From an uncultured Flavobacteriaceae bacterium (GTDB taxonomy: Bacteria > Bacteroidota > Bacteroidia > Flavobacteriales > Flavobacteriaceae): DNA of 64,000 nt. Positions 35,985 through 55,021 of this stretch are shown here, piece by piece (the stretch's first letter is position 1; each line of letters begins with the position of its first letter). Location: positions 62,001 through 126,000 of the forward strand of contig CANKZQ010000003.1 in NCBI GenBank assembly GCA_947488345.1, read 5' to 3'. A program made the position numbers and the translations under genes. The notes beneath the pieces were generated by a model. It was given only the letters and a program-made list of their open reading frames with translations, was not told the DNA's origin and made no database searches.

Positions 35985-37939
35985 GTCAAAAACAAATTGA
36001 CATATTAAAGCGTGCTCTGCAGAGAGAAAAAGCAGCACGAAATGCAGCCGAAACTATTCTTGAAGACAAGTCTAGAGCCTTATATGATACATCTAAAAGG
36101 TTAGAACAATTATTAGATGAGAAATCTTCTCAACTTCAAGGCATTTTCGAAAACATAGTCGATGCGTATGTAGTAATGGATTTGGCTGGAAACATTATTA
36201 AATTTAACGAAGCAGCAGTTACTTTATTTGGTTTTGATGTAGAAAAGGAATCTCTAAATGTCGTAGATCTTATATACAAAGAAGACTATCAATATGCGAT
36301 GAACTCTTTTAAAGAATTACAAAGGAAAGGGGTTTTTAAAAATTATGAAGCCAGAATAAATACCAAGTCTGGAAATTTAAAATGGGCACATATCAATGCT
36401 AGTATGGTTTATGATAAAAACAGAAAACCTATTTTGGCACAAGGAATTGTACGTGATATTTCGGCTCAAAAAGCATCTGCAGAACGTCTCATTAAATCTG
36501 AAAGTAGATTGGCATCTCTTATTACGAACCTAGATAGTGGTGTTTTGTTGGAAGATGAACATGGCAGAATAGTTCTTACGAATAAAAAGTTTTGCGATTT
36601 ATTTGATATTTCTATTGAACCCGAACTACTTAAAGGAGAGGATTGCTTGGATACGGTTGAAAAAAGTAAGGGCCTTTTTGAAAATAAAGATGTCTTCGTG
36701 AAAACGATTAATGAAATTCTAGAAAAAAAGGAGACTGTTTTAGAAGACGAATTAACCATGAAAAATGGAACAGTTTTGGAGCGTAATTTTACACCTATAA
36801 TAAAAGATAATGTGTATCGTGGTCATCTATGGACTTATAAAGATGTAACTCTGAATAGAACTTACAGGAAAAGTTTAGAAGCTCAAAGGCAAAAATATAG
36901 TAGTATCATAGCTAATATGAATTTAGGTTTGGTAGAAGTAAATACCGAAGATGAAATATTAATGATAAATCAAAGTTTTATTGAAATGTCTGGTTATTCT
37001 GAAGCCGAATTACTCGGTAAAAAAGGACATGAAATCTTTCTGAAAGGTGTACATAAAGACAAACTCAAAAATGAGAATTCGAAACGTAAAATGGGCGAAC
37101 CGAGTTCTTATGAAATTGAAATCAAAAATAAATCAGGAGAAACAAAACATTGGTTGGTTAGTGGCGCTCCTAATTATGATATAAATGGCGAAGTAATAGG
37201 TTCTATTGGTATTCACTTAGATATTACGAATAATAAAGCATTAGAACTTCAAAAAGAAGAATTATTGCTAAAACTGGAGAAAAGTAACGATGAACTTCAT
37301 GAGTATGCGCATATTGTTTCTCATGATCTAAAATCACCTTTAAGAAGTATTAATGCTCTGGTAAGTTGGCTAAAGGAAGATAATTTGGCAAAATTTGATG
37401 AAACTAGTCTTCAGAATTTTAACCATATCGAAACAACCTTAGATAAAATGGAGCATTTGATTTCGGATGTGCTGGCCTATTCAAGCTTAGGAGCAGAGAC
37501 TACAGATAACGTCGATGTTGATACAAATAAATTGGTGCAAGATCTATTGAAGATTCTATATATCCCCGATCACATTGAAGTGAAAATATTAAATACCCTT
37601 CCTATCATTAAAGGCGACCAAACCAAATTACAACAGGTCTTTCAAAACTTTATCAGCAATGCCGCTAAGTTCATTGATAAAGAAAAGGGTCTCATCGAGA
37701 TTGATGTTTACGAAAAAGACGAGTACTATGAGTTTTCAATTAAAGATAATGGTATCGGAATTGACGAGAAATTTCACGCAAAAATATTCAAGATTTTTCA
37801 TTCATTAAACAACAACAAAGATTCTACAGGAATTGGGCTATCCATTGTCAAAAAAATTGTTGATCTACATAGTGGTAAAATCTGGCTGACCAGTGAACCC
37901 AATATTGGTACTACCTTTTACTTTAGTTTAAAAAAATAG
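35981..37939 (+). CDS. Soluble multi-PAS histidine kinase, H-NOX partner
   Basis: The 652-residue protein has no membrane helix. An N-terminal coiled coil (about residues 1-55) is followed by three PAS-like domains at about 55-170, 175-290 and 300-420. A HisKA domain follows with phospho-accepting His448 (YAHIVSHDLKSPLRS), then a HATPase domain with N box FQNFISNAAKF, G1 DNGIGID and G2 STGIGLSIVKKIV. It is a non-hybrid kinase with no receiver. It overlaps the H-NOX gene by four bases, the standard sign of an H-NOX-regulated kinase. It would pass phosphate to the receiver at 35041, the LytTR regulator or the receiver-GT2 protein. Confidence 0.93.
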   Translation: MSQKQIDILKRALQREKAARNAAETILEDKSRALYDTSKRLEQLLDEKSSQLQGIFENIVDAYVVMDLAGNIIKFNEAAVTLFGFDVEKESLNVVDLIYKEDYQYAMNSFKELQRKGVFKNYEARINTKSGNLKWAHINASMVYDKNRKPILAQGIVRDISAQKASAERLIKSESRLASLITNLDSGVLLEDEHGRIVLTNKKFCDLFDISIEPELLKGEDCLDTVEKSKGLFENKDVFVKTINEILEKKETVLEDELTMKNGTVLERNFTPIIKDNVYRGHLWTYKDVTLNRTYRKSLEAQRQKYSSIIANMNLGLVEVNTEDEILMINQSFIEMSGYSEAELLGKKGHEIFLKGVHKDKLKNENSKRKMGEPSSYEIEIKNKSGETKHWLVSGAPNYDINGEVIGSIGIHLDITNNKALELQKEELLLKLEKSNDELHEYAHIVSHDLKSPLRSINALVSWLKEDNLAKFDETSLQNFNHIETTLDKMEHLISDVLAYSSLGAETTDNVDVDTNKLVQDLLKILYIPDHIEVKILNTLPIIKGDQTKLQQVFQNFISNAAKFIDKEKGLIEIDVYEKDEYYEFSIKDNGIGIDEKFHAKIFKIFHSLNNNKDSTGIGLSIVKKIVDLHSGKIWLTSEPNIGTTFYFSLKK

Positions 37940-37942
37940 TTA

Positions 37943-38260
37943 ATGGAGCATCCAAACATTTCATATTTACAGGAACTTTCAGGAGGAGACATCCCCTTTG
38001 AGAGAAAAATCATCGCTATTTTGAAAGAAGAATTTCCAGAAGAAAAGAAAGTTTATTATGAAAATTTTGAGGGGAAAAATTTCAAACTAGCAGCGAATAG
38101 TGTACATAAATTAAGACACAAAATTAATATGCTAGGGCTTGAGAAAGGTTATAAAACTGCCGAGGCATTTGAAAATAATCTGCGAAATGATGACATTACT
38201 CTTTCGGAAGAATTTGATGGTATCCTACAAAACTTGACCAATTATATTGAACGTTTATAG
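37943..38260 (+). CDS. Stand-alone histidine phosphotransfer (Hpt) protein
   Basis: The 105-residue helical protein carries the Hpt site VHKLRHKINMLGL with phospho-accepting His55 and a nearby Lys/Arg as in family members. It has no other domain. It lies three bases after the kinase and 9 bases before the LytTR regulator, so it can relay phosphate from the single receiver to the DNA-binding regulator. Confidence 0.88.
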   Translation: MEHPNISYLQELSGGDIPFERKIIAILKEEFPEEKKVYYENFEGKNFKLAANSVHKLRHKINMLGLEKGYKTAEAFENNLRNDDITLSEEFDGILQNLTNYIERL

Positions 38261-38269
38261 TGAATATTT

Positions 38270-38980
38270 ATGAATTGTATTATTATTGATGACGAAAAAA
38301 CAGCTAGAGCCATAATTAATAGGTTATGCAGCACTAAAGAAGGTTTAACCGTTCTTAATGAATTTCCAAATGCAATAGAGGCCATTAAATTTTTGAATCA
38401 ACACCAAGTTGATCTAATTTTTCTCGATATACATATGCCTAGCTTTAACGGTTTTGACTTTATTCAAACATTAAAGAATCCACCTAGAATCATATTAACA
38501 ACTTCAGATCCCAATTTCGCAATAGCAGCTTTTGAATATGAATGTATTGTAGATTATCTAATAAAACCAATTCTACCACCTCGTTTCGAGAAGGCCATAC
38601 GAAAAGCGACATCATCGGCAATCAAACAAAGCACTTCGGGCATTTCAGATAGTCAAAAATCAACTATTGAAGATGAACTCTATGTTAATATAGATAGACG
38701 TTTGATTAAAATTGACATGACTAGTATTTATTTGATCGAAGCGAAAGGTGATTATATCTTGATAAAGACAGATAACGATAACTATATTGTTCATTCGACA
38801 TTGAAGAAAGTTGAAGAAAAATTACCCCCTTCATTGTTTTTAAAGGTTCATAGATCGTATATCATTAATATTAAACAAATTATAGATATCGAAGATAATA
38901 GTGTACTCATTAAAAAAGATGTTATTCCAGTTAGTCGTTCGAATAAACCTGAATTGATGCGACGACTTAACTTATTATAA
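38270..38980 (+). CDS. LytTR-type response regulator, H-NOX operon
   Basis: A receiver (about residues 1-120) with Asp7-Asp8, phospho-acceptor Asp53 (IFLDIHMPSFN) and Lys in DYLIKPIL is followed by a LytTR DNA-binding domain (about 140-236; IEAKGDYILI, FLKVHRSYIINI, VIPVSRSNKPELMRRL). It is the probable transcription-factor output of the relay. All receiver residues are intact, in contrast to the second LytTR protein at 58329. Confidence 0.93.
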   Translation: MNCIIIDDEKTARAIINRLCSTKEGLTVLNEFPNAIEAIKFLNQHQVDLIFLDIHMPSFNGFDFIQTLKNPPRIILTTSDPNFAIAAFEYECIVDYLIKPILPPRFEKAIRKATSSAIKQSTSGISDSQKSTIEDELYVNIDRRLIKIDMTSIYLIEAKGDYILIKTDNDNYIVHSTLKKVEEKLPPSLFLKVHRSYIINIKQIIDIEDNSVLIKKDVIPVSRSNKPELMRRLNLL

Positions 38981-39518: not shown

Positions 39519-39526
39519 TAAATTTG
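39519..39526 (+). promoter_or_regulatory. Possible -7 element of the T9SS surface-protein gene
   Basis: TAAATTTG matches TAnnTTTG, 16 bases before the ATG at 39542. The TTG upstream (39491-39493) is 25 bases away, longer than usual. Confidence 0.3.
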
Positions 39527-39541
39527 TCAAAAAAAAGAGTT

Positions 39542-42145
39542 ATGAAAGAATATTTCACAAACATCTCAAAGAAAATTATCAAAACAGCGATAGTTTTATT
39601 CGGCCTAAGCACAGGAGCTCAGGAACTTCCTTTTAATTGCGATTATAACGCTTACTTATTTCAATATAATGATGTCTACGCAATAGATTTAGCATCTGGT
39701 AATTCTTATGTAGTTGCCACTGACGTTACTACTGGTAACATAAACGCTGCTGCCTATAATCCGGCAGACGGTTTTATTTGGGGTTCCCTTTCGAGTCCAG
39801 CAAAGACTATTGTACGAATTGGTAAAAACTTTGAAACAACTACCTTTTATATTGATGAACTTCCAACTAATAATAGATATGTTGGGGGTATAAATGCTCA
39901 TGGTATTTACTATCTCAAAGGAGGAGGAACTACTTATTATAAAATAGATTTAAATCCAGATTCAGCGAATTACGGAAACTACATATCTACAGAAACATTA
40001 TCTAAAAATATTAGTATTCATGATTGGGCATTTAATGCTGTTGATGGTAATTTATATACGGTCGAAAAAAATACGAATCTTTTATATCGAATTAATGCAG
40101 ATACGGGTATCGCAGAAAGTTTAGGTGAAGTACCAGTACTATCTGGTTTAAACTACACATACGGAGCAGTTTATTTTGACGTTACCGGAAGCTTTTACGT
40201 ATCCGCAAATCAAACTGGAACAGTATACAGAATAAATAATGTACAAGATATAAATGAATCAAACCCTATATCTGCCAATATCTTTGCCTTTGGACCATCG
40301 AGTTCAAGTAATGATGGTGCCAGGTGTCCTACTGCACCCGTTCCACAAGAAAACTGCAATAATGGTGTTGATGATGATGGTGATGGTCTTGTAGATTGTG
40401 ATGACCCGTCGTGTTCTGGAGTATCTTCGTGTCCAGTAATTGAAGCCCCTACTAGTGGTGGAAATAGTGGCGGTTTAGAAAGCAATAACAGGCTCTCAGA
40501 TCAAATAAACAAAAGAAATTTCAACCGTATCAAAACCAATTACAAATTTGACGAAAAAACAGCCAAGAAGCTAAGAAAAACAGATAGTTACGCGAAAAAA
40601 TCAACTAGTACGAATATTAAAATAAAGGATTTTATTCCTATTGGACTCCTTAATGAAGATTATATTGTTGAATCCTCTCCATTAGATTTATTAAACATTA
40701 CAAACGCAACAGATTTATACTCGGTTGACTATATGAATAACGGCAACATTGTTGCTTCGATTCTAGCATTAAAAACCGATAAAGGCGTATATGAGCATAC
40801 CAAATATATTTGTGATCGACTCTTGGGGGCCGAATTAATTTCTGTATCGACTATTGAGATAAACGGACAAAGTTTTATTAAGTCAATAATAAAAAATACG
40901 GATAATTCTATCGAATATGTCTTGAGCTTTTCTGCGAAAAAAATCAATTCAGAGAAAGAGTTTTCTATTGAAAGCCACTGGAATCTTGATAAATATAGTT
41001 CAAATCAGCAATTTTATAATTTCCAAATCTGGTCGAACTCAATAGATGATTTATTACTTTTAGGAAGTAACGTTCTTGAATTATTACAAGTTCAGAATCC
41101 AATTACTGAGTATAATTTATCTAAACCACCTACAGTTTTTGTAAAAAAAGGTAACTATGTAAAAGGTGGACTCGAACTAGAGGTTGTAAATACAAATGGC
41201 ACGAGAGAAATCGTTTTTGACGCCGGTATCAGAGATACCGAAACAAGCACAATTGAGTATGTTAGCGCTACTATAGATCTAGAAAAAAAATACATTAGTA
41301 CCTTGACATTAGAAACTGGTAACTTGTTCGATATTGGGTTTAGGATAGGTGATGGTATTTCAACTCCAGATGATTTGTTCATGTCTGACGGACCATGGGG
41401 AATAGATGATGCTGCCAAAAGTACAGTCGTGAAAAATTATAAAATTGGGAAAGATGTTAGCTCTAGAGATGCGTCAGATTTTCCAATAGAGAGAAATGTT
41501 TCGATCACTGCAGATACAAAAGAATACGTTTCGGTTTATCGTGCCTTAACACCAAGATTCAAAGCAGTTGACCTCTCTAATTATTCAAACTTAAAATTAA
41601 CGACAAAAGGAACGGGACAGTTGGAGATTAGAATCATTAAAAAAAGCATTTCAAGTTGGGAGGATCAGTTTAAGGCAACAATTTCTTTAGATACTAATTT
41701 TCAAAATCATGAGATAGCGCTAGAGAGTTTCACCTCTTCTGCGTTGAATGAGCTCCAATTAAATGATATAGTTTCAATTGTATTCACAATGAAATCAGCC
41801 GACGGAACTTTAGAGACTAAAAACTTATCCATCAAAGATTTAAGTTTTTCTGTAAACAAAACCCTTTCAACAGAAAGCGAAACTTTAGCGACGATAAATC
41901 CAACGTTATTCCCAAATCCAATGTCGAAGAGTGCTACCATTACTTTTACAGCAACTAAAAATCATATAGCGAACTTATTCATCTATAATGTGACTGGAAA
42001 ATTGGTGAAACAGTTAAATTTTGATGTTGTTACAGGTATAAACGAAGTAGTTATTGATCGTGACTTGTTGACATCGGGTCTATATTTCTGTAAAATAGGA
42101 AGTCCATTTCACAGCTATGACACCATGAAGTTACTCATAGAATAG
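39542..42145 (+). CDS. T9SS-sorted surface protein with DUF6923-like domain and DxDxDG motif
   Basis: The 867-residue product starts with a signal peptide (IVLFGLSTGAQ). The first 240 residues form a DUF6923-like beta-propeller-type domain (FNAVDGNLYTVEKNTNLLYRI). Next is a Cys-flanked calcium-loop motif NNGVDDDGDGLVDCDDPSC (about residues 280-300). The central part is unassigned, and a CIA30-like beta-sandwich (SNLKLTTKGTGQLEIRI) follows. The last 80 residues are a type A T9SS sorting domain (LFPNPMSKSATITF ... LTSGLYFCKI). The protein is thus exported and attached to the surface by the type IX system. I chose ATG 39542 over a TTG at 39524. Its function may be adhesive or enzymatic. Confidence 0.85.
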   Translation: MKEYFTNISKKIIKTAIVLFGLSTGAQELPFNCDYNAYLFQYNDVYAIDLASGNSYVVATDVTTGNINAAAYNPADGFIWGSLSSPAKTIVRIGKNFETTTFYIDELPTNNRYVGGINAHGIYYLKGGGTTYYKIDLNPDSANYGNYISTETLSKNISIHDWAFNAVDGNLYTVEKNTNLLYRINADTGIAESLGEVPVLSGLNYTYGAVYFDVTGSFYVSANQTGTVYRINNVQDINESNPISANIFAFGPSSSSNDGARCPTAPVPQENCNNGVDDDGDGLVDCDDPSCSGVSSCPVIEAPTSGGNSGGLESNNRLSDQINKRNFNRIKTNYKFDEKTAKKLRKTDSYAKKSTSTNIKIKDFIPIGLLNEDYIVESSPLDLLNITNATDLYSVDYMNNGNIVASILALKTDKGVYEHTKYICDRLLGAELISVSTIEINGQSFIKSIIKNTDNSIEYVLSFSAKKINSEKEFSIESHWNLDKYSSNQQFYNFQIWSNSIDDLLLLGSNVLELLQVQNPITEYNLSKPPTVFVKKGNYVKGGLELEVVNTNGTREIVFDAGIRDTETSTIEYVSATIDLEKKYISTLTLETGNLFDIGFRIGDGISTPDDLFMSDGPWGIDDAAKSTVVKNYKIGKDVSSRDASDFPIERNVSITADTKEYVSVYRALTPRFKAVDLSNYSNLKLTTKGTGQLEIRIIKKSISSWEDQFKATISLDTNFQNHEIALESFTSSALNELQLNDIVSIVFTMKSADGTLETKNLSIKDLSFSVNKTLSTESETLATINPTLFPNPMSKSATITFTATKNHIANLFIYNVTGKLVKQLNFDVVTGINEVVIDRDLLTSGLYFCKIGSPFHSYDTMKLLIE

Positions 42146-42550: not shown

Positions 42551-44611
42551 TTATTTCTTGAAGACATTGCGCTTTGTTGGGAGATACCATTTAAAACGAA
42601 TACCCAGCTCGGTATATTTAAATCCGGCCGCGGTAACTGAGGCTATATTACTATTTGTTCCATAGAAGTTTAGTAAACCTCCACCTTTAAATTTATATCC
42701 TAATTTTCCTTGGATTCTATAGGTACTTTGCCTTTCAGTATTATCTATAAACTGGTAACCTGTCGCTAAATTTAATCCATAAAACCAATTAGATTCTTTT
42801 ACAGCATTTTCATCTTTCAGTAGATCTACAAAAATTTCAACAGCATTAAACTTTTCAGGACTAAAATAGATAGTCGGTACCTGATTCTTAAAAGATATAT
42901 ATTGATAATTTACACCCGCTTTTAAAATTGGTTTACTTAAAATGTTATAATACAACGAAGTAAATAGCAAGTTACGGGTATTATCATCATTTTGAGAAGT
43001 AAAATAATACTGTGTGAACCACCCAAGGTTAAAATTAGAACTAACATTATAATTTGCATAAAAATTATCCTGTACTATTTCTCGCGCCAATAGATCGGCA
43101 TTAAAACTTTCTATTGTTCTCTTATAACCAATTTCTAAGTCTTGCAATTTAAAGGGCTTTATTTTAAAAGACAAATCAGATAAAAATCGACTAAAATCAT
43201 TTAGTTCAGAATTGGCATTGCTTAAACCCGCTTGACCTTTGAATGAAACTGCTGGTAGTAATTGATAAGAAAATCCAACATTAAAAGTATTGGCAGTAGC
43301 TTTGTTTTTAGAATTTGAATTTCTAGTTGTTCGATATATATAATTACCTAACAGCGTCAATTTTGTTGATATGGGGTATTCAATACCATTAGTCAATGAC
43401 CATGCTGAGTTATCGCCATTATCAAAGCTATAGGCAACTTTATGCTCTGCAAAAGGTGAAAAGTTCTTCTCAAGTTGTTTTATAAATTGTACAACATCTT
43501 TTTGATTGTCATGATACGTCAAGGTTTTCTCTGCTCCAGTGTAAGCTTCTTGATAAGCACCTGTAGCCTTTAAGGCATTGGCCTTACCTAAATTACCATC
43601 AAAAGATGATGGGTCATTCTTTAGAATACTTTCATAATCTTGGATACTTTTTTTGAAGTTACCTTTATAAATATTCAACGTAGCTCTTAATGCTAAAGCC
43701 CAATTTTCGTTTGGATGTTCACTATTAAGTTCATCAATTAACGTTTTCGCAGCGGCATACTTCTTATTCCAAATCAAGGCTTGAGCATAGCGCTCTTTCG
43801 TTTGATTGATTAAACTCTTATCAGCTATGTCATTGATTTGTTGATAGGCTTGTTTGCTCAGGTCTAAGGCCTCGTTCTCCTTACCTTGCATATGACTCAC
43901 CAAAGCCAACCCATTAAGTGATAAGACATTACCCTGATTCGAATCTGCCAGCAATTTGTAGGTTTTTTCAGCTTCTTCTAATTCATTCGAATTTATATAT
44001 ACATTCGACAAGCTCAGTAAACTTTCTTTATCATTTTTAAACTCTTTTAAATTATCATTTAAAATTTTTATCGCCTCCGAATAGTTTTGCTTCATCAAAT
44101 ACTTATTCGCATACCCTAAACGAATATATTTCTTAGATACCAAGGCGTTATTGTTTCCTGGAGAAACTTTTAAAGCTTTATCTACATATTCTAATGCTGT
44201 GTCATACTCTTTTAAATTAGATAAGGTATTTGCGTATCCTAGCAAAGCTGGAAAACTTTGAGAATTCTCAACAATTAAAGCTTTGTAAAAGGGTTTTGCT
44301 TTTGCATACTCTTTATTCCATAATAAAGATTCAGCATAGTTTAATTTTATTTCATAATCATTCGGATGTATATCTAGTAAGTTTGTAAAAATAGCTACAG
44401 CCTTTTTAGAATTTCCGTTAAGGCCTACTGCTCTACCATAACAAAGATTAGCAGTTTTGTTATTCGGATATTCGATGAGAATTTTAGAAAAATAAGACTC
44501 AGCCTCAGCATATGCTCCCGTTTCTAAATAGTTAAACCCTTTTTTCATGTCTTGAGCATTTAAACTAATAACATACAAGAGCGAAATCCATAAAATAAAT
44601 TGATTCTTCAT
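42551..44611 (-). CDS. TPR protein with YaiO-type outer-membrane barrel
   Basis: A signal peptide (ILWISLLYVISLNAQ) is followed by about ten tetratricopeptide repeats (about residues 20-380) with typical A-x-x-x-(Y/F)-x-x-(A/L)-L-x-x-x-P units. From about 390 to the end there is a YaiO-type beta-barrel with alternating aromatic strands (LLGNYIYRTTRN, GLNLATGYQF) ending FKWYLPTKRN. This TPR-plus-barrel layout recalls export proteins of exopolysaccharide systems such as BcsC and the AlgK/AlgE pair. It is divergent from the STAS and glycosyltransferase genes, which supports a role in polysaccharide export. Confidence 0.82.
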   Translation of the reverse strand: MKNQFILWISLLYVISLNAQDMKKGFNYLETGAYAEAESYFSKILIEYPNNKTANLCYGRAVGLNGNSKKAVAIFTNLLDIHPNDYEIKLNYAESLLWNKEYAKAKPFYKALIVENSQSFPALLGYANTLSNLKEYDTALEYVDKALKVSPGNNNALVSKKYIRLGYANKYLMKQNYSEAIKILNDNLKEFKNDKESLLSLSNVYINSNELEEAEKTYKLLADSNQGNVLSLNGLALVSHMQGKENEALDLSKQAYQQINDIADKSLINQTKERYAQALIWNKKYAAAKTLIDELNSEHPNENWALALRATLNIYKGNFKKSIQDYESILKNDPSSFDGNLGKANALKATGAYQEAYTGAEKTLTYHDNQKDVVQFIKQLEKNFSPFAEHKVAYSFDNGDNSAWSLTNGIEYPISTKLTLLGNYIYRTTRNSNSKNKATANTFNVGFSYQLLPAVSFKGQAGLSNANSELNDFSRFLSDLSFKIKPFKLQDLEIGYKRTIESFNADLLAREIVQDNFYANYNVSSNFNLGWFTQYYFTSQNDDNTRNLLFTSLYYNILSKPILKAGVNYQYISFKNQVPTIYFSPEKFNAVEIFVDLLKDENAVKESNWFYGLNLATGYQFIDNTERQSTYRIQGKLGYKFKGGGLLNFYGTNSNIASVTAAGFKYTELGIRFKWYLPTKRNVFKK

Positions 44612-44759: not shown

Positions 44760-45038
44760 ATGGAATTAGAAATTAAAAGAATCAAAGAAGTCTTCTATTT
44801 AAAAGGTAATTTGACAAAGGCAACATTATCTCACTTAAAAAGCCATTTTAGCTATACCATTGATTTAGGGCCTAATATCATCTTGAATATTCGAGATATT
44901 AAAAAAATTGATACTTCAGGCATCAAAGTTCTTGAAGAATTATACGATCAGATTTCATGTATGAATCAACGTCTTTGTATTACAGGATTACAATTCAATC
45001 AGTTGCGAAGAGTTGAAAGCTCAAATTTTACCGCATAA
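44760..45038 (+). CDS. STAS-domain protein (anti-sigma-antagonist type)
   Basis: The 92-residue protein is one STAS domain. It has the strand LKGNLTKATLSHLKSHF, the phosphorylatable loop KIDTSGIKVLEEL, where Thr/Ser of the D-T-S-G motif would be the target, and a short C-terminal strand. Known STAS proteins are switched by a partner kinase (SpoIIAB-like) or by a phosphatase, and no such gene is visible nearby. It is 181 bases before the receiver-GT2 gene on the same strand, so it may recruit or regulate components of the polysaccharide machine. Confidence 0.85.
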   Translation: MELEIKRIKEVFYLKGNLTKATLSHLKSHFSYTIDLGPNIILNIRDIKKIDTSGIKVLEELYDQISCMNQRLCITGLQFNQLRRVESSNFTA

Positions 45039-45219: not shown

Positions 45220-46365
45220 ATGAAAATATTAGCAATAGATGATCAACAACTTATCACGCTGTCACTCGAAAAACACCTAGGTGATTTGGGATACAATGTG
45301 AAGACCGCTCAGAACGGATTAGAAGGAGTTAAACTATTTGATACTTATAAACCAGATTTAATTATCGTAGATATAAATATGGACGGTATGTCTGGTTTAG
45401 ATGTTGTTAAGATTATACGGGAAGTAAAAAAATCCGATGTTCCAATTTTAGTTATGTCTGGTAATACACGCGAAGATATTATCGTTTGTGGTTTCCACTT
45501 AGGTGCCGATGATTATATGAAAAAACCGGTTAGTCTCAATGAAATAGCTGCCCGTGTAAAACGAATTATTGGCGCTCCAAAAAATCCAAACTTTCAAAGT
45601 TCTAAAGATAAGTTCAAGACTAAAATGCTTCAAGAAAATTGTGTAGGCGTTGTAATACCCTGTTATAATGAGGAAGAACGACTTTTGAGCAAAGAATTTA
45701 TTGATTTTATAGATAGCAATTTAGGATACCATCTTTGTTTTGTAAATGATGGTAGCAAGGATAATACTTTAGAGGTTTTAGAAAAATTAAGAGAAGGGAG
45801 AGAAGATTATGTTAGTATTTATAATTGTAAAGTCAACGGTGGTAAGGGTGAAGCTGTACGACAAGGAATGCTCAATTTAGTAAAGGATCAACAGTTAGAT
45901 TTTATAGGTTTTTTAGATGCAGATTTATCAACAGACTTCAAAGATTTTGATGATTTAGTAAAAACGATCAGCACCTCTGAATTTAAGATTGTTAGTGGAT
46001 CTCGAATGTCAAGAATGGGTGCCAATATCACGAAGGAATCCGCACGAAAAATAATTAGTAAAACAATCAACATTATTATCCGTAAGATACTCGGAATGAG
46101 TTTTAATGATACACAATGCGGGGCAAAAATTATGCGTCGAGATATCGTTACTGACATTTTTAAAGAAAAGTTTATCACACGCTGGATTTTCGACGTTGAA
46201 ATTTTCAAACGTATGAGAATTAAATACGGTAAAGAGGAGGCTATTTCTATGATCTGCGAGCAGCCTTTAAAAAAATGGATTCATGCCGATGGTTCTAAAC
46301 TTTCAATGAAGGATTCTATTAAAATTGTTGGGCAACTAGCTCAAATTGCTGTGCACTACAGGTAG
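45220..46365 (+). CDS. Receiver domain fused to GT2 (DPM1/dolichyl-phosphate-type) glycosyltransferase
   Basis: Residues 1-122 form a complete response-regulator receiver: Asp7-Asp8, phospho-acceptor Asp51 (LIIVDINMDGMSG), a Ser/Thr loop (VMSGNTRED) and Lys in DDYMKKPVS. From about residue 135 the chain is a GT2 domain with VGVVIPCYNEEERL, CFVNDGSKDNT, FLDADLSTD (the catalytic DxD region) and GSRM. It resembles dolichyl-phosphate mannose/glucose synthases, without a membrane tail. The ATG at 45220 is preferred to an upstream TTG at 45202. A flippase follows after 17 bases. The expected chemistry is sugar transfer to a polyprenyl phosphate, with phosphorylation as a possible switch (inference). 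Confidence 0.93.
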   Translation: MKILAIDDQQLITLSLEKHLGDLGYNVKTAQNGLEGVKLFDTYKPDLIIVDINMDGMSGLDVVKIIREVKKSDVPILVMSGNTREDIIVCGFHLGADDYMKKPVSLNEIAARVKRIIGAPKNPNFQSSKDKFKTKMLQENCVGVVIPCYNEEERLLSKEFIDFIDSNLGYHLCFVNDGSKDNTLEVLEKLREGREDYVSIYNCKVNGGKGEAVRQGMLNLVKDQQLDFIGFLDADLSTDFKDFDDLVKTISTSEFKIVSGSRMSRMGANITKESARKIISKTINIIIRKILGMSFNDTQCGAKIMRRDIVTDIFKEKFITRWIFDVEIFKRMRIKYGKEEAISMICEQPLKKWIHADGSKLSMKDSIKIVGQLAQIAVHYR

Positions 46366-46382
46366 AAAATAAATTATTGATA

Positions 46383-47642
46383 ATGCATTTACTCTCCAAA
46401 ATCAAAACTAGAAGAATCTCTCCTGAGAAATTCTTTATGATTAGTGTCTTACTTGTTAATGGCGGTAATTATGTGTACAATTTGATTTTGGGAAGAATTC
46501 TCGGACCGGCACAATTTGCTGACGCGGCTGTGCTCGTTACTTTTCTTTTAGTCTTATCATTTTTAGCCATGACTTTTCAACTTGTTACGGCAAAGTTCTC
46601 GGTGCTACTGGAACCAGCCTCCTTCAATAGTTTTATTGTACGTATGTATAAATCAGGGGCCATTACGGGAATCGTTTTCGGAGTTTTGGTTATTCTATTT
46701 TCAGCCCAACTACAAAGCTTATTCAACACGATTTCTAGCAAGATGTTTGTTGTTTTTGGCCTAGGAGTGCCTTTTTATTTCATAATGAGTGTAAACAGGG
46801 GTATGTATCAAGGTAAAAAAGAATACAAGTCGCTTTCAATTACCTATCAAACTGAAATGCTGAGTCGATTACTAATCACTCTAGCTATATTGTATTATTT
46901 AAACATTCAATCATCTATTGCTGTTGCTATTGGGATTCTTATATCATTTTTGTTTGGTCTCTTCCCATTTGAGCTTAAGAATATTCTACGTAAGTCTACG
47001 ATAGTTCTTAAAAAAACTGAAAAAATTGAGGTTAGAAATTTCTTCATATTGACGGCCTTTTATGAATTCACCCAAATTATAATTAACAATAGTGATATTT
47101 TAATGGTGAAACACTATTTCAACTCATTTGATGCAGGACTTTATGCTTCATTAGCACTCATCGGACGTGTTGTTTATTTTATTGCCTGGATGTTCGTAAT
47201 GTTACTCTTACCGACAGTCGTTTCATTAAAAAAAGAAGGTAAAGAAACCACATCTATATTGTTTAAATATATAGGATACATTACTGCAATTTCTGTGATT
47301 ATAGTTATGGCGTGCTTTGTCTTTCCGGAAACAATTATTGCCTTACTTTTTGGTGGTAGCTATACGTCAATGGCTCCGCTATTATATAAATACGCTATTG
47401 CTACCTCTCTGTTTGCAATATCGAACATTTTCGCCTATTACTATTTATCATTAGGCAAGTATGTTCCTGTGATTCTTTCAGGAATTTTAGGAATGACCCA
47501 AATAATATTGATCATTATATTTCACGCAAATTTAGAACAAGTAGTTCATATGCAAATCATCGCAATGTTAGTACTTCTAGCAGTACAATTGATCTATTTT
47601 TTTAAAAACAATATGCAAGAACAAAAAAAATATAAAAAATAG
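46383..47642 (+). CDS. Wzx/MATE-like polysaccharide flippase
   Basis: The 419-residue product has about 12 membrane helices and the Wzx/MOP layout: an N-terminal GGNYVYNLILGRILGPAQFA segment, typical of oligosaccharide flippases, and symmetric halves around a central loop. Such proteins move lipid-linked oligosaccharides or polymers across the inner membrane. It starts 17 bases after the receiver-GT2 gene and ends two bases before the GT4 gene. The pairing of a MOP-type membrane protein with a GT4 recalls PelG/PelF, but sequence evidence for Pel is lacking. Confidence 0.88.
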   Translation: MHLLSKIKTRRISPEKFFMISVLLVNGGNYVYNLILGRILGPAQFADAAVLVTFLLVLSFLAMTFQLVTAKFSVLLEPASFNSFIVRMYKSGAITGIVFGVLVILFSAQLQSLFNTISSKMFVVFGLGVPFYFIMSVNRGMYQGKKEYKSLSITYQTEMLSRLLITLAILYYLNIQSSIAVAIGILISFLFGLFPFELKNILRKSTIVLKKTEKIEVRNFFILTAFYEFTQIIINNSDILMVKHYFNSFDAGLYASLALIGRVVYFIAWMFVMLLLPTVVSLKKEGKETTSILFKYIGYITAISVIIVMACFVFPETIIALLFGGSYTSMAPLLYKYAIATSLFAISNIFAYYYLSLGKYVPVILSGILGMTQIILIIIFHANLEQVVHMQIIAMLVLLAVQLIYFFKNNMQEQKKYKK

Positions 47643-47644
47643 TT

Positions 47645-48814
47645 ATGAGATTAGCCCTAGTAACCGCGTATCCACCTAGTAAGGTCACGTTAAATGAATA
47701 TGCATATCATTTAGTAAAATACTTCAGACAAAAACATGAAGTGTCTGAAATTATATTACTCACCGATGTCACCGTTGGTAAGAAAGATATTTCATTCACC
47801 GAAAAAGGTTGTAAAATAACTGTTAAAGAATGTTGGAATTTTAACAGTTATAAAAATATCGTGAGTGTTACAAAGGCTATAAATCAAACTAAACCCGATG
47901 CAGTACTCTTCAATTTACAATTCATGAAATTTGGAGATAAAAAAATTCCTGCATCATTGGGTCTATTACTACCATGGATCTGTAAAATAAAAAGAATACC
48001 CAATATTGTATTACTCCATAACATCTTAGAACAAGTAGATTTGAATACTGCTGGTTTCACGAGTAATAAGGTACTGCAAAAGATCTATAATTCAATAGGT
48101 ACTATGCTAACAAAATTTATTTTAAAAGCTGATACTGTTGCGCTAACCATGCCTAAGTATGTTGAGATATTAAAAGAAAAATACAATGTCACAAATGTTG
48201 TTAATATTCCTCACGGAACTTTCGAAATTCCCGAAGAACCTTCATATGGTTTAATTCCTGGACCTTTGAAAGTCATGACATTTGGTAAATTCGGAACGTA
48301 TAAAAAAGTTGAAATATTAATTGAAGCGGTAGAAAAAACACGCAAGAAAACTGGATTAGATATTGAAATCGTTATTGCTGGCACAGATAATCCCAATGTT
48401 CCAGGGTATTTAGAACAAGTAAAAAAAGAATATATAGATGTACCGCAATTACATTTTACAGGTTATGTAGAAGAAAGTGATGTCGCTCGAATTTTTCAAG
48501 AAAGTGCTGTTGTTGTTTTTCCATATACCTCCACTACTGGAAGTTCTGGGGTACTGCATCAAGCTGGGAGTTATGGTAAGGCTGTCGTAATGCCCAACTT
48601 GGGTGATTTAGCGCTTTTGGTTAAAGACGAAGGATATGAAGGTGAATTCTTTGAACCAAACAGTGTTGATAGTTTAGCCATTGGAATCGAAAATATCCTA
48701 ACCAATGATACCTATAGAAGAAATCTTGGAAAAATTAATTATCAAGCAGCAACCTCGCTACCAATGAGTCATATTACTGATTTATATATGGCCGAATTCA
48801 AAAGTATCTCTTAA
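47645..48814 (+). CDS. GT4-family glycosyltransferase
   Basis: A GT-B fold protein of 389 residues: the N-terminal half starts RLALVTAYPPSKVTLNEYA, and the C-terminal half has KVMTFGKFGTYKKVEILIEA, EIVIAGTDNPN, LHFTGYVEES and the nucleotide-sugar-binding VVVFPYTSTTGSSGVLHQAG segment with a Glu-rich end (EGEFFEPNSV). It follows the flippase after two bases and is the last plus-strand gene of the cluster. It is convergent with the GH5-like gene. Confidence 0.9.
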   Translation: MRLALVTAYPPSKVTLNEYAYHLVKYFRQKHEVSEIILLTDVTVGKKDISFTEKGCKITVKECWNFNSYKNIVSVTKAINQTKPDAVLFNLQFMKFGDKKIPASLGLLLPWICKIKRIPNIVLLHNILEQVDLNTAGFTSNKVLQKIYNSIGTMLTKFILKADTVALTMPKYVEILKEKYNVTNVVNIPHGTFEIPEEPSYGLIPGPLKVMTFGKFGTYKKVEILIEAVEKTRKKTGLDIEIVIAGTDNPNVPGYLEQVKKEYIDVPQLHFTGYVEESDVARIFQESAVVVFPYTSTTGSSGVLHQAGSYGKAVVMPNLGDLALLVKDEGYEGEFFEPNSVDSLAIGIENILTNDTYRRNLGKINYQAATSLPMSHITDLYMAEFKSIS

Positions 48815-48817
48815 ACC

Positions 48818-50338
48818 TTAATAAGAGATATATTCAAACGACGGTTTCGGTTTACCATTCACATCAACAAAACCAAACTTTTTTTGTAAACTTCTTCTCC
48901 ATGGTAGGTTTCCAACTACATCTTTTGGAACGTTTTTATAATCATATAATGTCCATGACATAAAATGAATTTTATTCTTTTTTAAAATATTTTGCACCTT
49001 TTTGTGAAACTTCAATTGTTTATTCTTAGATCCTGCAAAGGGTTTCCAAAACCCACCATATGACGAATAGCCAAACTCTCCCAATAAAATAGGCTTGTCA
49101 ACTAACTCCTTTCGCATATTTAAATATACATCTTCAAGAGCATCAATATCTTCATAATAGTGAAATGAAATCAAATCCGTCTTTTCTTTTAAGAGATACG
49201 CATTTTTATGTTTTGCCCATCCTATTGTAACGGCATGCTTATTATCAATTTTTTTTATACCCTCTATCATCGCGTTTAACCAAGCCATAACAGCTGATTT
49301 TGATCTTGACTCAAAGTCTAAATCAGGTTCATTTTTCACATCCCAAGCGAGAATAGCTTCATGGTCTTTAAAAGATGAAACAATCGTTTCCAAATGTTTT
49401 AAATTAATTGTCCAATCAAGCACCGAATAATCTCCATAAAAATCAAATAAGGTTACAATTACTTTTAACTCTTTGCTTTGAGCTAAATCAAGAAGAACTT
49501 TTAATTTTTCTATTTTCTCAGGTTCCACCTCCCCTTTTCCGAAGTCATTATATTGCACAAAAATTCGAATCGTATTGAGCTTTGCTTTCTTTATGATATC
49601 GAAATCTTTAGCGATAATCAACGGATCAAATTCTTCTCCAAAAGTATTCCATGGTGTAGCTTGCGGATAATAATTTATTCCTTTTATTTGATACTCATTC
49701 AGTGCAATTTGATTTGTGTTCTGAATTGTATCTTCTATAACTGTTTCCGTTTTTAACAAATGTCGAATACGCCAAAATCCATCCTCGAGTAAAAGCACTA
49801 TTTTATAAGTTGATGTCTCGTAAAACTCATTTATCAGCTCATCATTTTTATAAACTTTTTTGTATTCAGAAACGTCAGAATCTGTAAGAACAGCAAGTTG
49901 ACCGTCTTCACTAAAAAATTCTAATGTTGGATTATGTGCTAATGTTGTAGCTTCAATTGATACATTCTTATTCTCATTTGTTTCGATAAAATTGAAAATG
50001 TTTTTACGAGCACTTTCTGTATAATAATCTTCAATACCTAATGGGTTGTTATTCTTATAGGCAATATGTTTCACATACCATGCTTTTAAGTAGTCCTTTT
50101 CTATGGTTTGTAATGATTGTTTGTCTATAACCCTTCCTTTATTTATTTCATTAGACCATGACATGGAAGGCGTGTAATTTGATGCGCTTTGTAGTTCTAA
50201 ATGCAGCATACTACTTCTATCAGCTCCAGTATTTAAATATTCAAAAACACTACCTATTCCGAAAATGAGGAAGGCATTTATGACTATGAATGTCAAAATT
50301 AATAGTCCCCTAATTATATTTTTATTTAAGTTAATCAT
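48818..50338 (-). CDS. Membrane-anchored GH5-like glycoside hydrolase with NTF2-like region
   Basis: One membrane helix near the N-terminus (residues 8-28) anchors the protein. Residues about 70-200 form a small domain of NTF2-like type (YYTESARKNIFNFI ... DGFWRIRHL). The remaining 300 residues are a TIM-barrel hydrolase: NTIRIFVQYNDFG, then the acid/base Glu in AWDVKNEPDLDF, the HYYEDID segment, and the nucleophile Glu in ILLGEFGYSSYGG. Two glutamates in these places are the clan GH-A signature. In polysaccharide systems such enzymes trim or release polymer during export. It overlaps the Ig-like gene by four bases. Confidence 0.85.
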   Translation of the reverse strand: MINLNKNIIRGLLILTFIVINAFLIFGIGSVFEYLNTGADRSSMLHLELQSASNYTPSMSWSNEINKGRVIDKQSLQTIEKDYLKAWYVKHIAYKNNNPLGIEDYYTESARKNIFNFIETNENKNVSIEATTLAHNPTLEFFSEDGQLAVLTDSDVSEYKKVYKNDELINEFYETSTYKIVLLLEDGFWRIRHLLKTETVIEDTIQNTNQIALNEYQIKGINYYPQATPWNTFGEEFDPLIIAKDFDIIKKAKLNTIRIFVQYNDFGKGEVEPEKIEKLKVLLDLAQSKELKVIVTLFDFYGDYSVLDWTINLKHLETIVSSFKDHEAILAWDVKNEPDLDFESRSKSAVMAWLNAMIEGIKKIDNKHAVTIGWAKHKNAYLLKEKTDLISFHYYEDIDALEDVYLNMRKELVDKPILLGEFGYSSYGGFWKPFAGSKNKQLKFHKKVQNILKKNKIHFMSWTLYDYKNVPKDVVGNLPWRRSLQKKFGFVDVNGKPKPSFEYISY

Positions 50339-51549
50339 AAATTTATATGATGTATTTTTTTGGTTAAACCCGACACACTTACTTCAAACGTGTATGTACC
50401 TTTTGAAAGTAATTGATCATGTAAACTAAATGCAGCCTGGCCGTTTCTTGTGGTCTCTTGAAATTCGTTTATTAAAATTTTATCTTTTCTCAGTACTAGC
50501 TCTACGCGCTGTCCGTCAGGAATAAACTGATTCATAAAACTCATTAACCCTTGAACTTCTAGCGTACTAGATTCTTTATCAAACATCAATTGAAATTCTT
50601 TAATAGCCCTCTTGTATTCTAGATTTACTTCATTACTTTCGGCCATTCCTGGGATGTAGGCTTTTACTTTCCATTGTTCAGGATGATCAGGATGAATTAT
50701 ACTTCCAACGGCAACACCACGTATAGTAACTCCCGAAGTTTTTAGTATATCATCATTTTTGTTTCTAATAAAAAAATTCACATAGGTTCCATCACTTACA
50801 ACATTATCAAATTCGTCTCTTATGATGGAAGTCGAAAACTCTGTTAATTGGTTACCATCTGCAAAGCTATGATCTCTTTTTGCTTCAATTGTGAAATTAG
50901 CTGGTACATTTGGCAAGATGTCAATCGTATATTCTTTTGAAAAAGTAGTAGCACTTTCTGAAGTAACTAGTACCCTACCAGCTTTGTTCTTTGTGTAGAA
51001 ATTCTTATAACAAATTAGATTCGAAGAGCTTACCTTGGCTGTAGATATATCATCTAAAAATTGACTTTTGAAAATCGCATTGGTACTATCTGGTGGAGGA
51101 TTGCCATACTCATCATGTAATAGCAACACCATCATAGCAAAATCTTTCTCACCCGCTTGGATAGTATTCGGACCGAGATATGATTCTATTTCGCTAATCT
51201 CTGCATGAGGTTTTATAAAAAACGAACCCTTAATGCTTTTTTCTTTATCGAATATCAATTTCCAATTTACATGTCCTGATTTATTATTTAGGTCATTAGT
51301 AAGATCATATGTTAATAGGTTTTCCTTTTTCGTGGGCAGAGATACACTCGAACCATAACTATTTGAAAAATATAAATTAGGTATACTTTTATAGGTCGAG
51401 GAAAAAGTTAATCTAATTTCGTCTCCAGCGATGAATGTTGCCTTTGAAGTTATCAGCTTAACCTCATCTACCTTTTTCTCTTGAATTAAGGTAAAAGATG
51501 ACGCTAGCACTAGTAAAATTAGAAACGGATATGTATGTTTTTTTATCAT
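50335..51549 (-). CDS. Secreted Ig-like-domain protein of unknown function
   Basis: A signal peptide (FLILLVLASSFT) is followed by about 380 residues with all-beta character. At least three invasin/bacterial Ig-like repeats can be guessed: LITSKATFIAGDEIRLTF, LLLHDEYGNPPPDSTNAI and IIRDEFDNVVSDGTYVNF. The D-E-(Y/F)-x-N motif recurs in the two inner repeats, as in Big-1-type domains. No catalytic motif is seen. It overlaps its neighbours by 4 bases and 1 base, so it is translated together with the GH5-like and GT-C-like genes. Confidence 0.75.
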   Translation of the reverse strand: MIKKHTYPFLILLVLASSFTLIQEKKVDEVKLITSKATFIAGDEIRLTFSSTYKSIPNLYFSNSYGSSVSLPTKKENLLTYDLTNDLNNKSGHVNWKLIFDKEKSIKGSFFIKPHAEISEIESYLGPNTIQAGEKDFAMMVLLLHDEYGNPPPDSTNAIFKSQFLDDISTAKVSSSNLICYKNFYTKNKAGRVLVTSESATTFSKEYTIDILPNVPANFTIEAKRDHSFADGNQLTEFSTSIIRDEFDNVVSDGTYVNFFIRNKNDDILKTSGVTIRGVAVGSIIHPDHPEQWKVKAYIPGMAESNEVNLEYKRAIKEFQLMFDKESSTLEVQGLMSFMNQFIPDGQRVELVLRKDKILINEFQETTRNGQAAFSLHDQLLSKGTYTFEVSVSGLTKKIHHINL

Positions 51550-54500
51550 TAATCTATATTACCAATAAAACTATTGATTTCAATTTTTAAGTAACTATAT
51601 GCTTTATGATCGATTTGCTGCAATTGATCTTTTGAATGATTCTTTATTCTATTTGGTACTACTTTGTCAGAAATAGCGTCGTTAGGTAGGCCATTAACTA
51701 AACAATTTGACATATCTGTTGAAACGATTTTGATCATATTATTTAAAGGGAAATTGTACTGAAAATCACGCTTTCTTTGTTGGCGTATTCCTTCTTCAAC
51801 GAATTTATGATCTACCCAAATTATTTCCTTGTCTTCATTATAATAAGTAAAAAGTAATTGGGGTACGGTAACTTCTTGCACACCAGAATTGAACAAGGTG
51901 CCCGAGATCCCATACTCATTAAATTCAATTCGACTCACATTAAGATTTTTGTATAGATCTTCACCTGAAACATTTCCTGTAATCTGCAAGTTAAATTTCG
52001 TAGGGTTTTTGACAAAATCCATTGATGTAAATTCATCTGGGTCAAAAGTGGTGGGTATATCATCATTGATATCTGACCATGCAATTCCTTCGAAATTAAT
52101 TTTAAAGCTTGACGTTTCCTTTGGCATTAGTTTATGTTTTACATGATACTTGGCATTATATGTGGCCAATTCTGTATCGTCGTCAGCATATAAAGAACCC
52201 TGTAAAATAACATCAGCAGGCACATTATCTACATTTTGCACTTCGCCAATGATCGCATATTGCGTTCCCTTTTTTATCAACTTTGCAGAAAGTATTTCAA
52301 CAACAGGTTGTTTTAACAAATCTTCATGATGTGTTTGTTCTGTTGTTATTCTTCTTCTTCCATGGTTTACATATACTGAAGTATTCTGAGAATACAATTG
52401 ATCCGGCGGTAAATCCGCATCTATTTTGTGTTGTTTAATAAACCATTTGTTTTCTCTTTTAATTAATGATTTTAGAAATGTTTTATTAATTTTTTCTAAG
52501 GGTGTAATCCATTCTGTTTTTACGATCGCACTCGCCAATGTATCGTTGATTGGTTTGACTTCACATTCTATGGCATCTAGTTTGGCGTATGAGCTCAATA
52601 ATCCATCTGATACTGATATTTCTAGCATGTATTGAGAAAGAGATAAATCGTCACTTTTATCTATTAAGGTGAACGCCTTTTCAAAATTTTTAAAATCTAT
52701 AGCATCATAATATGCGAGAAGGGCATTTTTTGGTGTTCTATGCGCATCACTATTAAGATAAATAGTGTGAATTGAAAAAAGGGTTATCGCCATTAAAACA
52801 AAACTCCAAACATGAGTGACATTCCATATGGTTTTAAAAAAACTTGGAGGTTGATTTTTAAAATTTAAATAAACTGCTGGTTGTGGTGTTTTTTGTTTCA
52901 AGGCGCGTATCAACTTCCTTGGAACATTGAGCAAAATGGCTATTAAAATGGTCAATAAAGGAATAATACCCCACATTACTTTTTGCCAAGTAGCAATATC
53001 ATTCTTTGGCAGTATTGAAGACACAGGTGGGATATTAAGTCGTTCCCATACCATTATACCATTCTCTAATTGACGTAATCGTTGCCAACCACAGAAATAT
53101 AATATAGGATCATAAAATTTATCATTCGAGAATATGTACTTCAAATTATACTTTTCTGGGACTGTCAAAAACTGCTGAAGAGATCCGATACCTTCAATTC
53201 CTTTAAATTTTGAATTTTCTAATCGTTCTATAGCCTTAGTAGTCAACTCGGGCAATTGTCTAGCCGAATGATAATTACCGTCTACAGTCATTGCTTTTGT
53301 TTGTGCAGAGAGCCATGCCATTTGATCTCCAAAACCTAAGGTTAAATATCGCCATTGATCATGTTCATCTTGATTGAGAAAGTTTACAATGGGTAGCATT
53401 TTAATAGGTTGAGGCTGTGAAGGCCTAAAATGACTGAGCGTTAGGGTAAAAACGGTCATAAACAAAAGAAGCATACCTAAAAAACTTCCAAATAATCGAT
53501 AATAAATTTTTCCAAATTGATTCACAATTAAAACCTTTAGATCTCCTTCTATCATCCTAAAAACGAATTCTCCAAAAAGAGGCAAGGCCAATATAGAAGC
53601 CCAAAGTGTAAAGCGATCTAAAGTCAGTATATTAAAGGCATTTTCACCTAAAAAAAGTTTAGGAATTGGTGTAGTTCCTCCAGAACCTAACACAAATAAT
53701 ATAGTTATCGAGATTCCAAAAAATAAATATCTTTTACTAAAATAACGATAAAATATATAGGGTAACAATATCAGTAAGATACCCCATGGTATTAAAAAAA
53801 ATACCAACCCAGAAGATGCGATTTCAATAAAATTATCTCTAGAGCCATGTGGTATCGGTACTTGAGTTATTGGATTATTCTTTGTATTAATCCAGTAAGG
53901 TAAAATACACACTATAATAATGACTAATGAGATTATTCCGAAACCAACAATTCTTTTAAACAACTTTTTAAAGGTTTCTAGAAATAATATAAAGGTTACT
54001 TTTTTATAAGATCCTACCTGCTCAGAAGAAGCATCCATAATGACCATTCCTATTAAAGGGAAAATAAAGAATACCATTCCAAAAATAGGAGTAACATGAT
54101 GTGAACAAACGGTTACGGCAATTAGAGATAAGGAAGTAAAAAGATATTTTAGTTTTCCTTGTTTGAGCCATAGATAAACTTCAGGTAACGCATGCATTAG
54201 AATAGAGATTCCAATAATACTTGGCAGTTGGCCAAATAAGTGTAATGTTTCGGCAAAAGATGATGAGAAAACAGCTAAAACGGCTGCATAACCTGCTATC
54301 TTCCGACTTGAAGATATTAATAATGAAAATCTATAAACACCTGTTATGAATACAACTATCGCAATAATAGCAACAGAAAATAATCCAAATTTTAGTCCAC
54401 CAATGAATGAGAAAAGAGCAATCACCTGATGCACCAGTGGCGGATAACTCATTACTGTGAATCCCGTATACCATTTAAAATTCCAAGGTTCAAACCAACT

Positions 54501-54638: not shown

Positions 54639-55021
54639 CAAAAACTAAAAGTTGATTTCATTTCTTAAAGATACTATAAAGCTCAGTGAAGGTTATTGCG
54701 ATTAATCGAAGCAACTATTTCATTCATCGTTAGAAATGGTCATTTGAACTCTTAGGTATACTAATATCGTGTTGTCGAAGTACTTTTTTCAAAAAATAGT
54801 GTCAGTTTTCGTTAAAATACCCAGAATATCTGTTTAGATGTACTTACTTGGTAAGTCTCGAGGTTTTATTGATTAACTCAAAAATAGGAACAAGATGATA
54901 TAAGTAATGGAGGTTTTTACGCATATTAATTACGGTATAACCCTATAAATTGTCATTCAACAAGATAAAAGTATTGAAAGAAAATGGAAGAAATATAGCA
55001 AAGATTTATCTTCAAATTATT
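54639..55021. other. 383-base gap upstream of the GT-C-like gene
   Basis: No gene is credible. It contains the small inverted repeat ACTTAC-TTG-GTAAGT (54842-54856) and a minus-strand -7-like TATTTTTG at 54879-54886, about 240 bases before the GT-C-like start. I see nothing else. Confidence 0.5.

Follow-up and report, generated by a model that had tools for sequence, protein, structure and literature searches.

A receiver-GT2 glycosyltransferase fusion of Flavobacteriaceae, a candidate for direct phosphorelay control of lipid-linked sugar supply

Organisation of the locus

The window, a stretch of 64,000 nucleotides from an uncultured Flavobacteriaceae bacterium, contains a gene for a response-regulator receiver joined to a GT2 glycosyltransferase (RR-GT2). 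Its reading frame is unbroken from the ATG at 45220 to the stop codon at 46363-46365, and the gene lies in a cluster that was mapped in 79 loci, the window among them, with flanks of at most 10 kb, some of them cut by contig ends. The features are as follows, with recurrence given as a fraction of these loci.

35041..35445, + strand: single-domain receiver (REC), with a counterpart in the operons of loci L103, L107 and L115
35442..35984, + strand: H-NOX haem-NO/O2-binding protein (PF07700, E 2.7e-40)
35981..37939, + strand: PAS histidine kinase (domain match)
37943..38260, + strand: Hpt phosphotransferase with the motif VHKLRHK and H55 (PF01627, E 8.4e-5, 1.4 bits under the cut-off)
38270..38980, + strand: LytTR response regulator (domain match)
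39524..42145, + strand: secreted protein with a T9SS sorting tail (Por_Secre_tail), a recurrent neighbour (17/79)
42551..44611, - strand: TPR protein (TPR families) with, by eye, a probable outer-membrane barrel half, recurrent in the locus maps
44760..45038, + strand: small STAS-domain protein of 92 aa (PF01740, E 2.4e-9)
45220..46365, + strand: RR-GT2 fusion protein, a single frame of 381 aa (Pfam)
45220..45570, + strand: receiver domain of RR-GT2, residues 1-117, OmpR/PhoB-like (Pfam, solved-chain matches, residues)
45571..45639, + strand: linker of RR-GT2, residues 118-140 (low model confidence)
45640..46362, + strand: GT2 domain of RR-GT2, residues 141-381 (Pfam, model, residues)
46377..47642, + strand: polysaccharide flippase (PF13440; 64/79)
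47645..48814, + strand: GT4 glycosyltransferase (PF13692/PF00534; 64/79)
48818..50338, - strand: glycoside-hydrolase-like TIM barrel protein (PF02836, E 1.2e-6; 62/79)
50335..51549, - strand: conserved protein, exported as judged by eye, with no Pfam match (63/79)
51549..54641, - strand: GT-C-like membrane protein of 1029 aa (PTPS_related, under the cut-off, in one of three members scanned; 62/79)

The flippase and GT4 genes follow RR-GT2, just as an earlier, sequence-only reading of this DNA had described. Towards the other side, the TPR region of the 42551..44611 protein is matched by the PgaA and BcsC models, below their cut-offs. Of the 79 loci, 51 contain a gene from any of four STAS clusters (checked with Pfam in the window, L107 and L113). 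Partner switching between a PP2C phosphatase and the STAS protein was considered and rejected, as no SpoIIE phosphatase was matched in the genome of the window by a search that matched 5 of 14 controls. The fused gene takes one of two positions in the cluster. One, that of the window, is the TPR/STAS/flippase end, and the other is next to the GT-C gene at the opposite end; in some genomes both positions are occupied.

Domains and active sites of the fused protein

Pfam places Response_reg (PF00072, E 6.4e-26, 91.1 bits against a cut-off of 30.2) at residues 3-113 and Glycos_transf_2 (PF00535, E 1.5e-20) at residues 144-314. At E ≤ 0.001 the output half also has a weak match to PF13704, and PF13641 is absent from it. 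The receiver site is formed by D7, D8, D51, S80 and K102, and all five residues are kept in 126 of 128 distinct fused sequences, three of which are partial pieces. The other two (L065 and L066) have a histidine at position 8 and come from a genus in which the fused gene occurs in tandem. In the GT2 half, the residues D177, D233-A-D235, Q299, K303, D325 and E327 are present; the DxD motif is intact in 122 of the 126 distinct fused sequences in which it is readable, and the four exceptions all come from genomes lacking the GT-C-like protein. With both domains matched and the active-site residues in place, the complete receiver joined to a GT2 enzyme at 45220-46365, as claimed before, is real.

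An AlphaFold2 model built with 36 of the 79 fused sequences has a mean pLDDT of 79 and contains two folded domains connected by a loose linker, with pLDDT below 50 at residues 126-137. Among the 50 Foldseek matches listed for this model, those that are not receivers are ArnC, GtrB and dolichyl phosphate mannose synthase (DPMS; 9asc, 9nyd, 5mm1), which within that list come closest in structure to the GT2 half; chains of PorX and PleD are among the listed matches to the receiver. As modelled, the fold of the GT2 half is thus nearest to polyprenyl-phosphate sugar synthases. Together with the coupling to the GT-C-like protein described below, this points to polyprenyl phosphate as the presumed acceptor. 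No transmembrane segment is evident in the RR-GT2 sequence by eye.

The solved receivers closest to that of RR-GT2 are mostly of a type that we take to be OmpR/PhoB, and the best NCBIfam model for the protein is that of Bacteroidota PhoB, which covers residues 3-160 at a score well under its cut-off. Because both comparisons point the same way, the receiver probably descends from a PhoB-like regulator in which the DNA-binding half was replaced. Of 124 sequences, at least 123 keep each of D98, E108 and R112, presumably the residues of an OmpR-like dimer face.

Spread of the fusion

Counting the window, 12 of 60 near relatives carry the fused form, and so do 86 of 397 genomes of the family (E ≤ 1e-60). 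Fused and bare forms were assigned by hand from the match rows, a query start at or before residue 62 being taken as fused; among the 86, the matches in G101 and G145 are cut by contig ends and that in G426 has in-frame stops. In a sample of the phylum, 12 of 395 genomes have the fusion, one of them belonging to a different family within the class. Scanning named genomes gave 408 relatives, and the best 80 of the 408 were taken, yielding 78 loci. Nearly all of these belong to Flavobacteriaceae (Algibacter, Winogradskyella, Aquimarina, Lacinutrix and others), assuming the placement implied by the genome titles. Portibacter lacus (L109) has most of the cluster and a fused gene at 68% identity, which suggests transfer between families.

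A frameshift or assembly error joining two separate genes had been named as the observation that would undo the fusion. This is ruled out, as the fusion recurs in 86 of the 397 family genomes and was also met in one genome of another family; already with the 12 of 60 near relatives, an artefact has next to no credibility.

The GT-C-like partner

The GT-C-like protein occurs in 109 of the 397 family genomes, and its presence follows that of the GT2 protein, fused or bare, almost without exception: 108 genomes have both, four have GT2 only, one has GT-C only and 284 have neither (Fisher p of about 2e-91, a value that ignores kinship). The sole genome with GT-C only has a partial match to it, covering residues 1-238. 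In 12 of 12 further genomes, eleven of Aquimarina in which the fused gene stands outside the cluster and that of Portibacter, GT-C is present as well.

The assignment of the 51549-54641 protein to GT-C is weak. It rests on a match to PTPS_related, presumably a member of the GT-C clan, in one of three orthologs scanned (E 2.8e-5, under the cut-off), and on a poor model, built with 20 of 62 GT-C sequences, that has a mean pLDDT of 55.5. Foldseek gave no row at E ≤ 0.001 for this low-confidence model; penicillin-binding proteins lead the list, and OST/STT3 rows at E of about 0.02 would fit a GT-C identity, as weak indications. A profile search of the PDB with the GT-C family gave no match.

The sequence-only reading had placed the target of control at an early step of lipid-linked glycan assembly. 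As the fold is nearest to the polyprenyl-phosphate synthases ArnC, GtrB and DPMS and the gene is tied to a GT-C-like protein, the controlled step is instead likely to be the supply of a lipid-phosphate sugar donor.

Fused genomes without GT-C

GT-C went unmatched, even at E 1e-3, in four of the 86 genomes with the fusion (G116, G152, G156 and G401). Each of the four has another residue in place of D235 (G, Q, E and E), and one of them in place of D233 too, so that the DxD motif is altered in 4/4 of these genomes against 0/122 of the other readable fused sequences, for part of which the presence of GT-C in the same genome was checked. The receiver residues are intact in all four proteins. The protein of G116 differs only at D235 among the eight GT2 residues read, and its GT2 half is still better conserved than its receiver; in the three others, which are divergent, further conserved GT2 residues are changed.

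The relative conservation of the two halves follows the same division. In 98.8% of the 7140 pairs among 120 ordinary fused proteins, the GT2 half is the better conserved of the two (mean 77%, with 65% for the receiver), and among the three divergent proteins the order is reversed in 3/3 pairs (receiver 44-65%, GT2 30-37%). These three form one clade in the tree and G116 does not have the reversal, suggesting about two events of GT-C loss. Since the DxD motif is altered yet the receiver intact where GT-C is absent, the GT2 site seems to be kept for GT-C and the receiver seems to have a use of its own.

The RR-GT2 genes of L177, L178 and L179 are of this divergent type: the receiver is intact, the GT2 site is decayed and the genomes have no GT-C match. 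In L182 the fused gene lies between receiver-less GT2 homologues, with an H-NOX/FIST/Hpt relay nearby and the GT-C cluster absent.

The receiver-less twin and the history of the fusion

A bare GT2 protein, lacking the receiver, is the only form in 26 of the 112 family genomes with GT2 (E ≤ 1e-60), and G286 has both forms; few candidates were scored per genome, so these counts of bare copies are lower bounds. In all 20 of these 27 genomes that were mapped, the bare gene lies divergently beside the GT-C gene, and it evidently serves the same locus as the fused form.

A tree was built from 32 fused sequences, 3 divergent ones, 24 bare ones, of which three are relics, and 5 outgroups. In it the fused clade is sister to the bare clade, both splits having an ultrafast bootstrap of 100, and the outgroups are receiver-less. 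The simplest history compatible with this topology would be one fusion event.

A family of GT2 fragments is present in 39 of the 79 fused loci. Both D233 and D235 are kept in only 1 of 44 open reading frames shorter than 245 aa, a set that contains two genes fetched twice (L022/L075 and L023/L105), one copy cut by the edge of the fetched segment and one from the GT-C-less L177. The longer bare copies keep both residues in 21/21 cases; they come from 20 loci, including L163, which also has a fused gene, and one of them has a masked stretch. The 44 short relics (for example L150:11206-11694) are fast-evolving and mostly follow the fused gene directly. Their frame is still open across many genera, and they may function as pseudoenzymes. 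Displacement of the bare twin is not universal: among four Aquimarina GT-C loci, the bare copy beside GT-C is full-length in L184 and L186 and short in L183 and L185. Two receiver-less homologues lie beside the fused gene in G116.

The linked phosphorelay

The genes for REC, H-NOX, PAS kinase, Hpt and LytTR at 35041-38980 of the window are codirectional, and the Hpt gene begins 3 bp after that of the 35981 kinase. In L103, L107 and L115 the operon order is REC, H-NOX, kinase, FIST, kinase, Hpt, LytTR (domains checked for L107), and the same set of REC/H-NOX/kinase/FIST/kinase/Hpt/LytTR lies near the fused gene in G116, which has no glycan cluster. Within the fetched flanks of the 79 loci, H-NOX is found in 5, FIST in 11, LytTR in 19 and Hpt in 29.

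The Hpt family is a distinctive one. PF01627 is matched by 14 of 16 members at E ≤ 0.05, and for the Hpt of L107 Pfam gave nothing at E ≤ 0.01. A profile made from 16 of the 30 Hpt sequences gave no Hpt match among solved chains of the PDB; H55 is invariant in the 16. At E ≤ 1e-25, with E-values used as rounded exponents, a member is present in 85 of the 86 fused genomes, in all 26 bare-only genomes and in 45 of 285 genomes with neither form. That bare-only genomes have it too shows Hpt to belong to the whole locus and not just to the receiver. For 84 of the 86 fused genomes, taking one fused copy each, Hpt and the fused gene are on the same contig in 75 and within 25 kb of each other in 71. 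In 11 of the 79 loci, all from Aquimarina, Hpt directly adjoins the fused gene in convergent orientation, 1-38 bp away; these eleven fused genes stand outside the cluster, in several different genomic settings. The LytTR regulator beside Hpt is an equally good target for its phosphate.

Two kinases of the window, beginning at 35981 and 55794, had been put forward as phosphate donors. The former is the better candidate, with Hpt 3 bp downstream and co-occurring with the fused gene. The NarL-type kinase/regulator pair 55022/55794 was rejected as a general partner, with homologues in 3 of the 79 loci, the window included, within flanks of up to 10 kb. Elsewhere in the genome of the window (L180:5986-11507), a second REC-kinase-Hpt-LytTR set lies beside a gene that, by eye, encodes a small Ras-like GTPase. 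No GGDEF match was found in this genome, which is 95% complete, by a search that matched 8 of 14 controls.

Proposed mechanism and alternatives

We propose that a phosphorelay gates the synthesis of a polyprenyl-phosphate sugar used by the GT-C enzyme, a reading to which we give a probability of about one half. RR-GT2 would be a response regulator with an enzyme as its output. Signals would enter through kinases associated with the haem sensor H-NOX and, in certain relatives, with FIST, and Hpt would be the last carrier, phosphorylating the receiver; both roles are suggested by gene linkage. Phosphorylation would alter the pairing of receivers through the OmpR/PhoB-like face and thereby switch the activity of the GT2 half, with activation being favoured. 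The GT2 half would take a sugar from a nucleotide donor and attach it to polyprenyl phosphate, and the GT-C-like protein would use the lipid-phosphate sugar across the membrane, building or decorating an exported polysaccharide. The result would be fast, direct control of the supply of sugar-lipid in an organism whose genome gave no match to GGDEF. The scheme presumes the catalysis, the phosphotransfer and the direction in which control acts.

The reading is supported by the single origin of the fusion, the intact sites, the co-inheritance with GT-C and Hpt, the degradation of the bare copy in many loci with the fusion and a GT2 site that is altered in genomes lacking GT-C. Against it stand the presence of H-NOX and FIST in only a few of the fetched flanks and the membrane topology: GtrB and ArnC carry C-terminal membrane helices, which by eye have no evident counterpart in RR-GT2. 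The direct link between phosphorelay and enzyme, as envisaged by the sequence-only reading, holds as far as the fusion of an intact receiver to an intact GT2 is concerned, and fits the comparative evidence; the control itself we infer.

The missing transmembrane segment, in a protein whose acceptor would be in the membrane, would be accommodated if the receiver governed location or assembly, phosphorylation recruiting a soluble GT2 to a membrane partner (flippase or GT-C) or pairing the GT2 domains while catalysis is constitutive. The near-invariant dimer-face residues D98, E108 and R112 would suit this too, and the comparative data fit it and allosteric control alike. Speaking against it is the bare GT2, which evidently serves the same locus with no receiver to recruit it, and we judge control of location rather unlikely. 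Phosphate flow could also be the main role of the receiver, as a sink or branch point that competes with LytTR for the phosphate of Hpt and has a minor effect on GT2. The adjoining Hpt and LytTR genes and the receivers kept intact in the three divergent proteins with decayed GT2 sites would be explained in this way, but a sink would need no catalytic partner, and the DxD motif is kept in all 122 readable fused sequences outside the four GT-C-less genomes; such a role appears decidedly improbable. That the receiver is an unphosphorylated structural relic finds some favour in the two of 128 receivers with H at position 8. The five active-site residues are kept in the other 126, the proteins with decayed GT2 included, and an Hpt gene adjoins fused genes lying outside the cluster, making a relic very improbable indeed.

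Beyond gated synthesis of the sugar-lipid, a wider scenario can be offered tentatively, as a possibility that we hold to be on the unlikely side. A gas-sensing relay (H-NOX, FIST) in bacteria without c-di-GMP would control exopolysaccharide by phosphorylating a polyprenyl-phosphate sugar synthase. The regulated form would have displaced its unregulated twin across much of the family, and where the glycan pathway was lost it would have become a receiver-pseudoglycosyltransferase with a purely signalling function.

Relation to known systems

PorX (REC-PglZ) and PleD (REC-GGDEF) are, like RR-GT2, response regulators with enzymatic outputs. To our knowledge these outputs are not sugar transferases, unlike that of RR-GT2, and we know of no ArnC, GtrB or DPMS with a receiver. 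NosP, which appears below, we take to be a FIST protein.

A glycosyltransferase fused to REC has been reported in Methanobacteriaceae, where MTH_548 and its relatives have a BcsA-like enzyme (PF13641) (PMC5847659). In the part of that report consulted, the likeness to RR-GT2 lies in one or two receivers fused to a glycosyltransferase, a narrow phyletic spread and the status of enzymatic-output response regulator (PMC5847659). The differences are that these proteins are archaeal and cellulose-synthase-like, whereas RR-GT2 is from Bacteroidota, has the ArnC/GtrB/DPMS fold, and comes with a linked phosphorelay and a GT-C-like partner. In H-NOX/NosP pathways, as far as the consulted part of a review covers them, haem sensors work through kinases and phosphorelays to influence biofilm traits, elsewhere largely via c-di-GMP enzymes or quorum sensing (PMC8738867); unlike in those that use c-di-GMP, the genome of the window shows no GGDEF match. 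In the Caulobacter holdfast, a glycosyltransferase, HfsJ, is inhibited at the protein level by HfiA at the end of a sensory network. According to the sections consulted, HfiA is a separate inhibitor with a transcriptionally regulated gene, while RR-GT2 has its receiver fused (PMC6530869).

Given the report from Methanobacteriaceae (PMC5847659), the REC-glycosyltransferase is a known kind of protein. A bacterial receiver-GT2 protein is described neither in the consulted parts of PMC8738867, PMC6530869, PMC9950754, PMC3609779 and PMC4933973 nor in the open-licence papers listed by the searches, as judged mostly from titles and the beginnings of abstracts. At that same depth of literature, no description was found of the subfamily, its lineage, the tie to GT-C, the bare twin or the receiver-pseudoenzyme forms.

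Two-component systems are usually held to control polysaccharides through transcription or c-di-GMP. In RR-GT2 the enzyme that would make the lipid-linked sugar donor appears to carry the switch itself, and in many marine flavobacteria a relay apparently controls a surface polysaccharide at the enzyme itself and not via gene expression. RR-GT2 could also be the output of H-NOX/FIST sensing, in a bacterium whose genome gave no match to a c-di-GMP-making domain. Because fused and receiver-less versions occur in the same gene cluster, and forms with a damaged GT2 exist as well, nature provides the variants with which the value of direct phospho-control can be tested directly.
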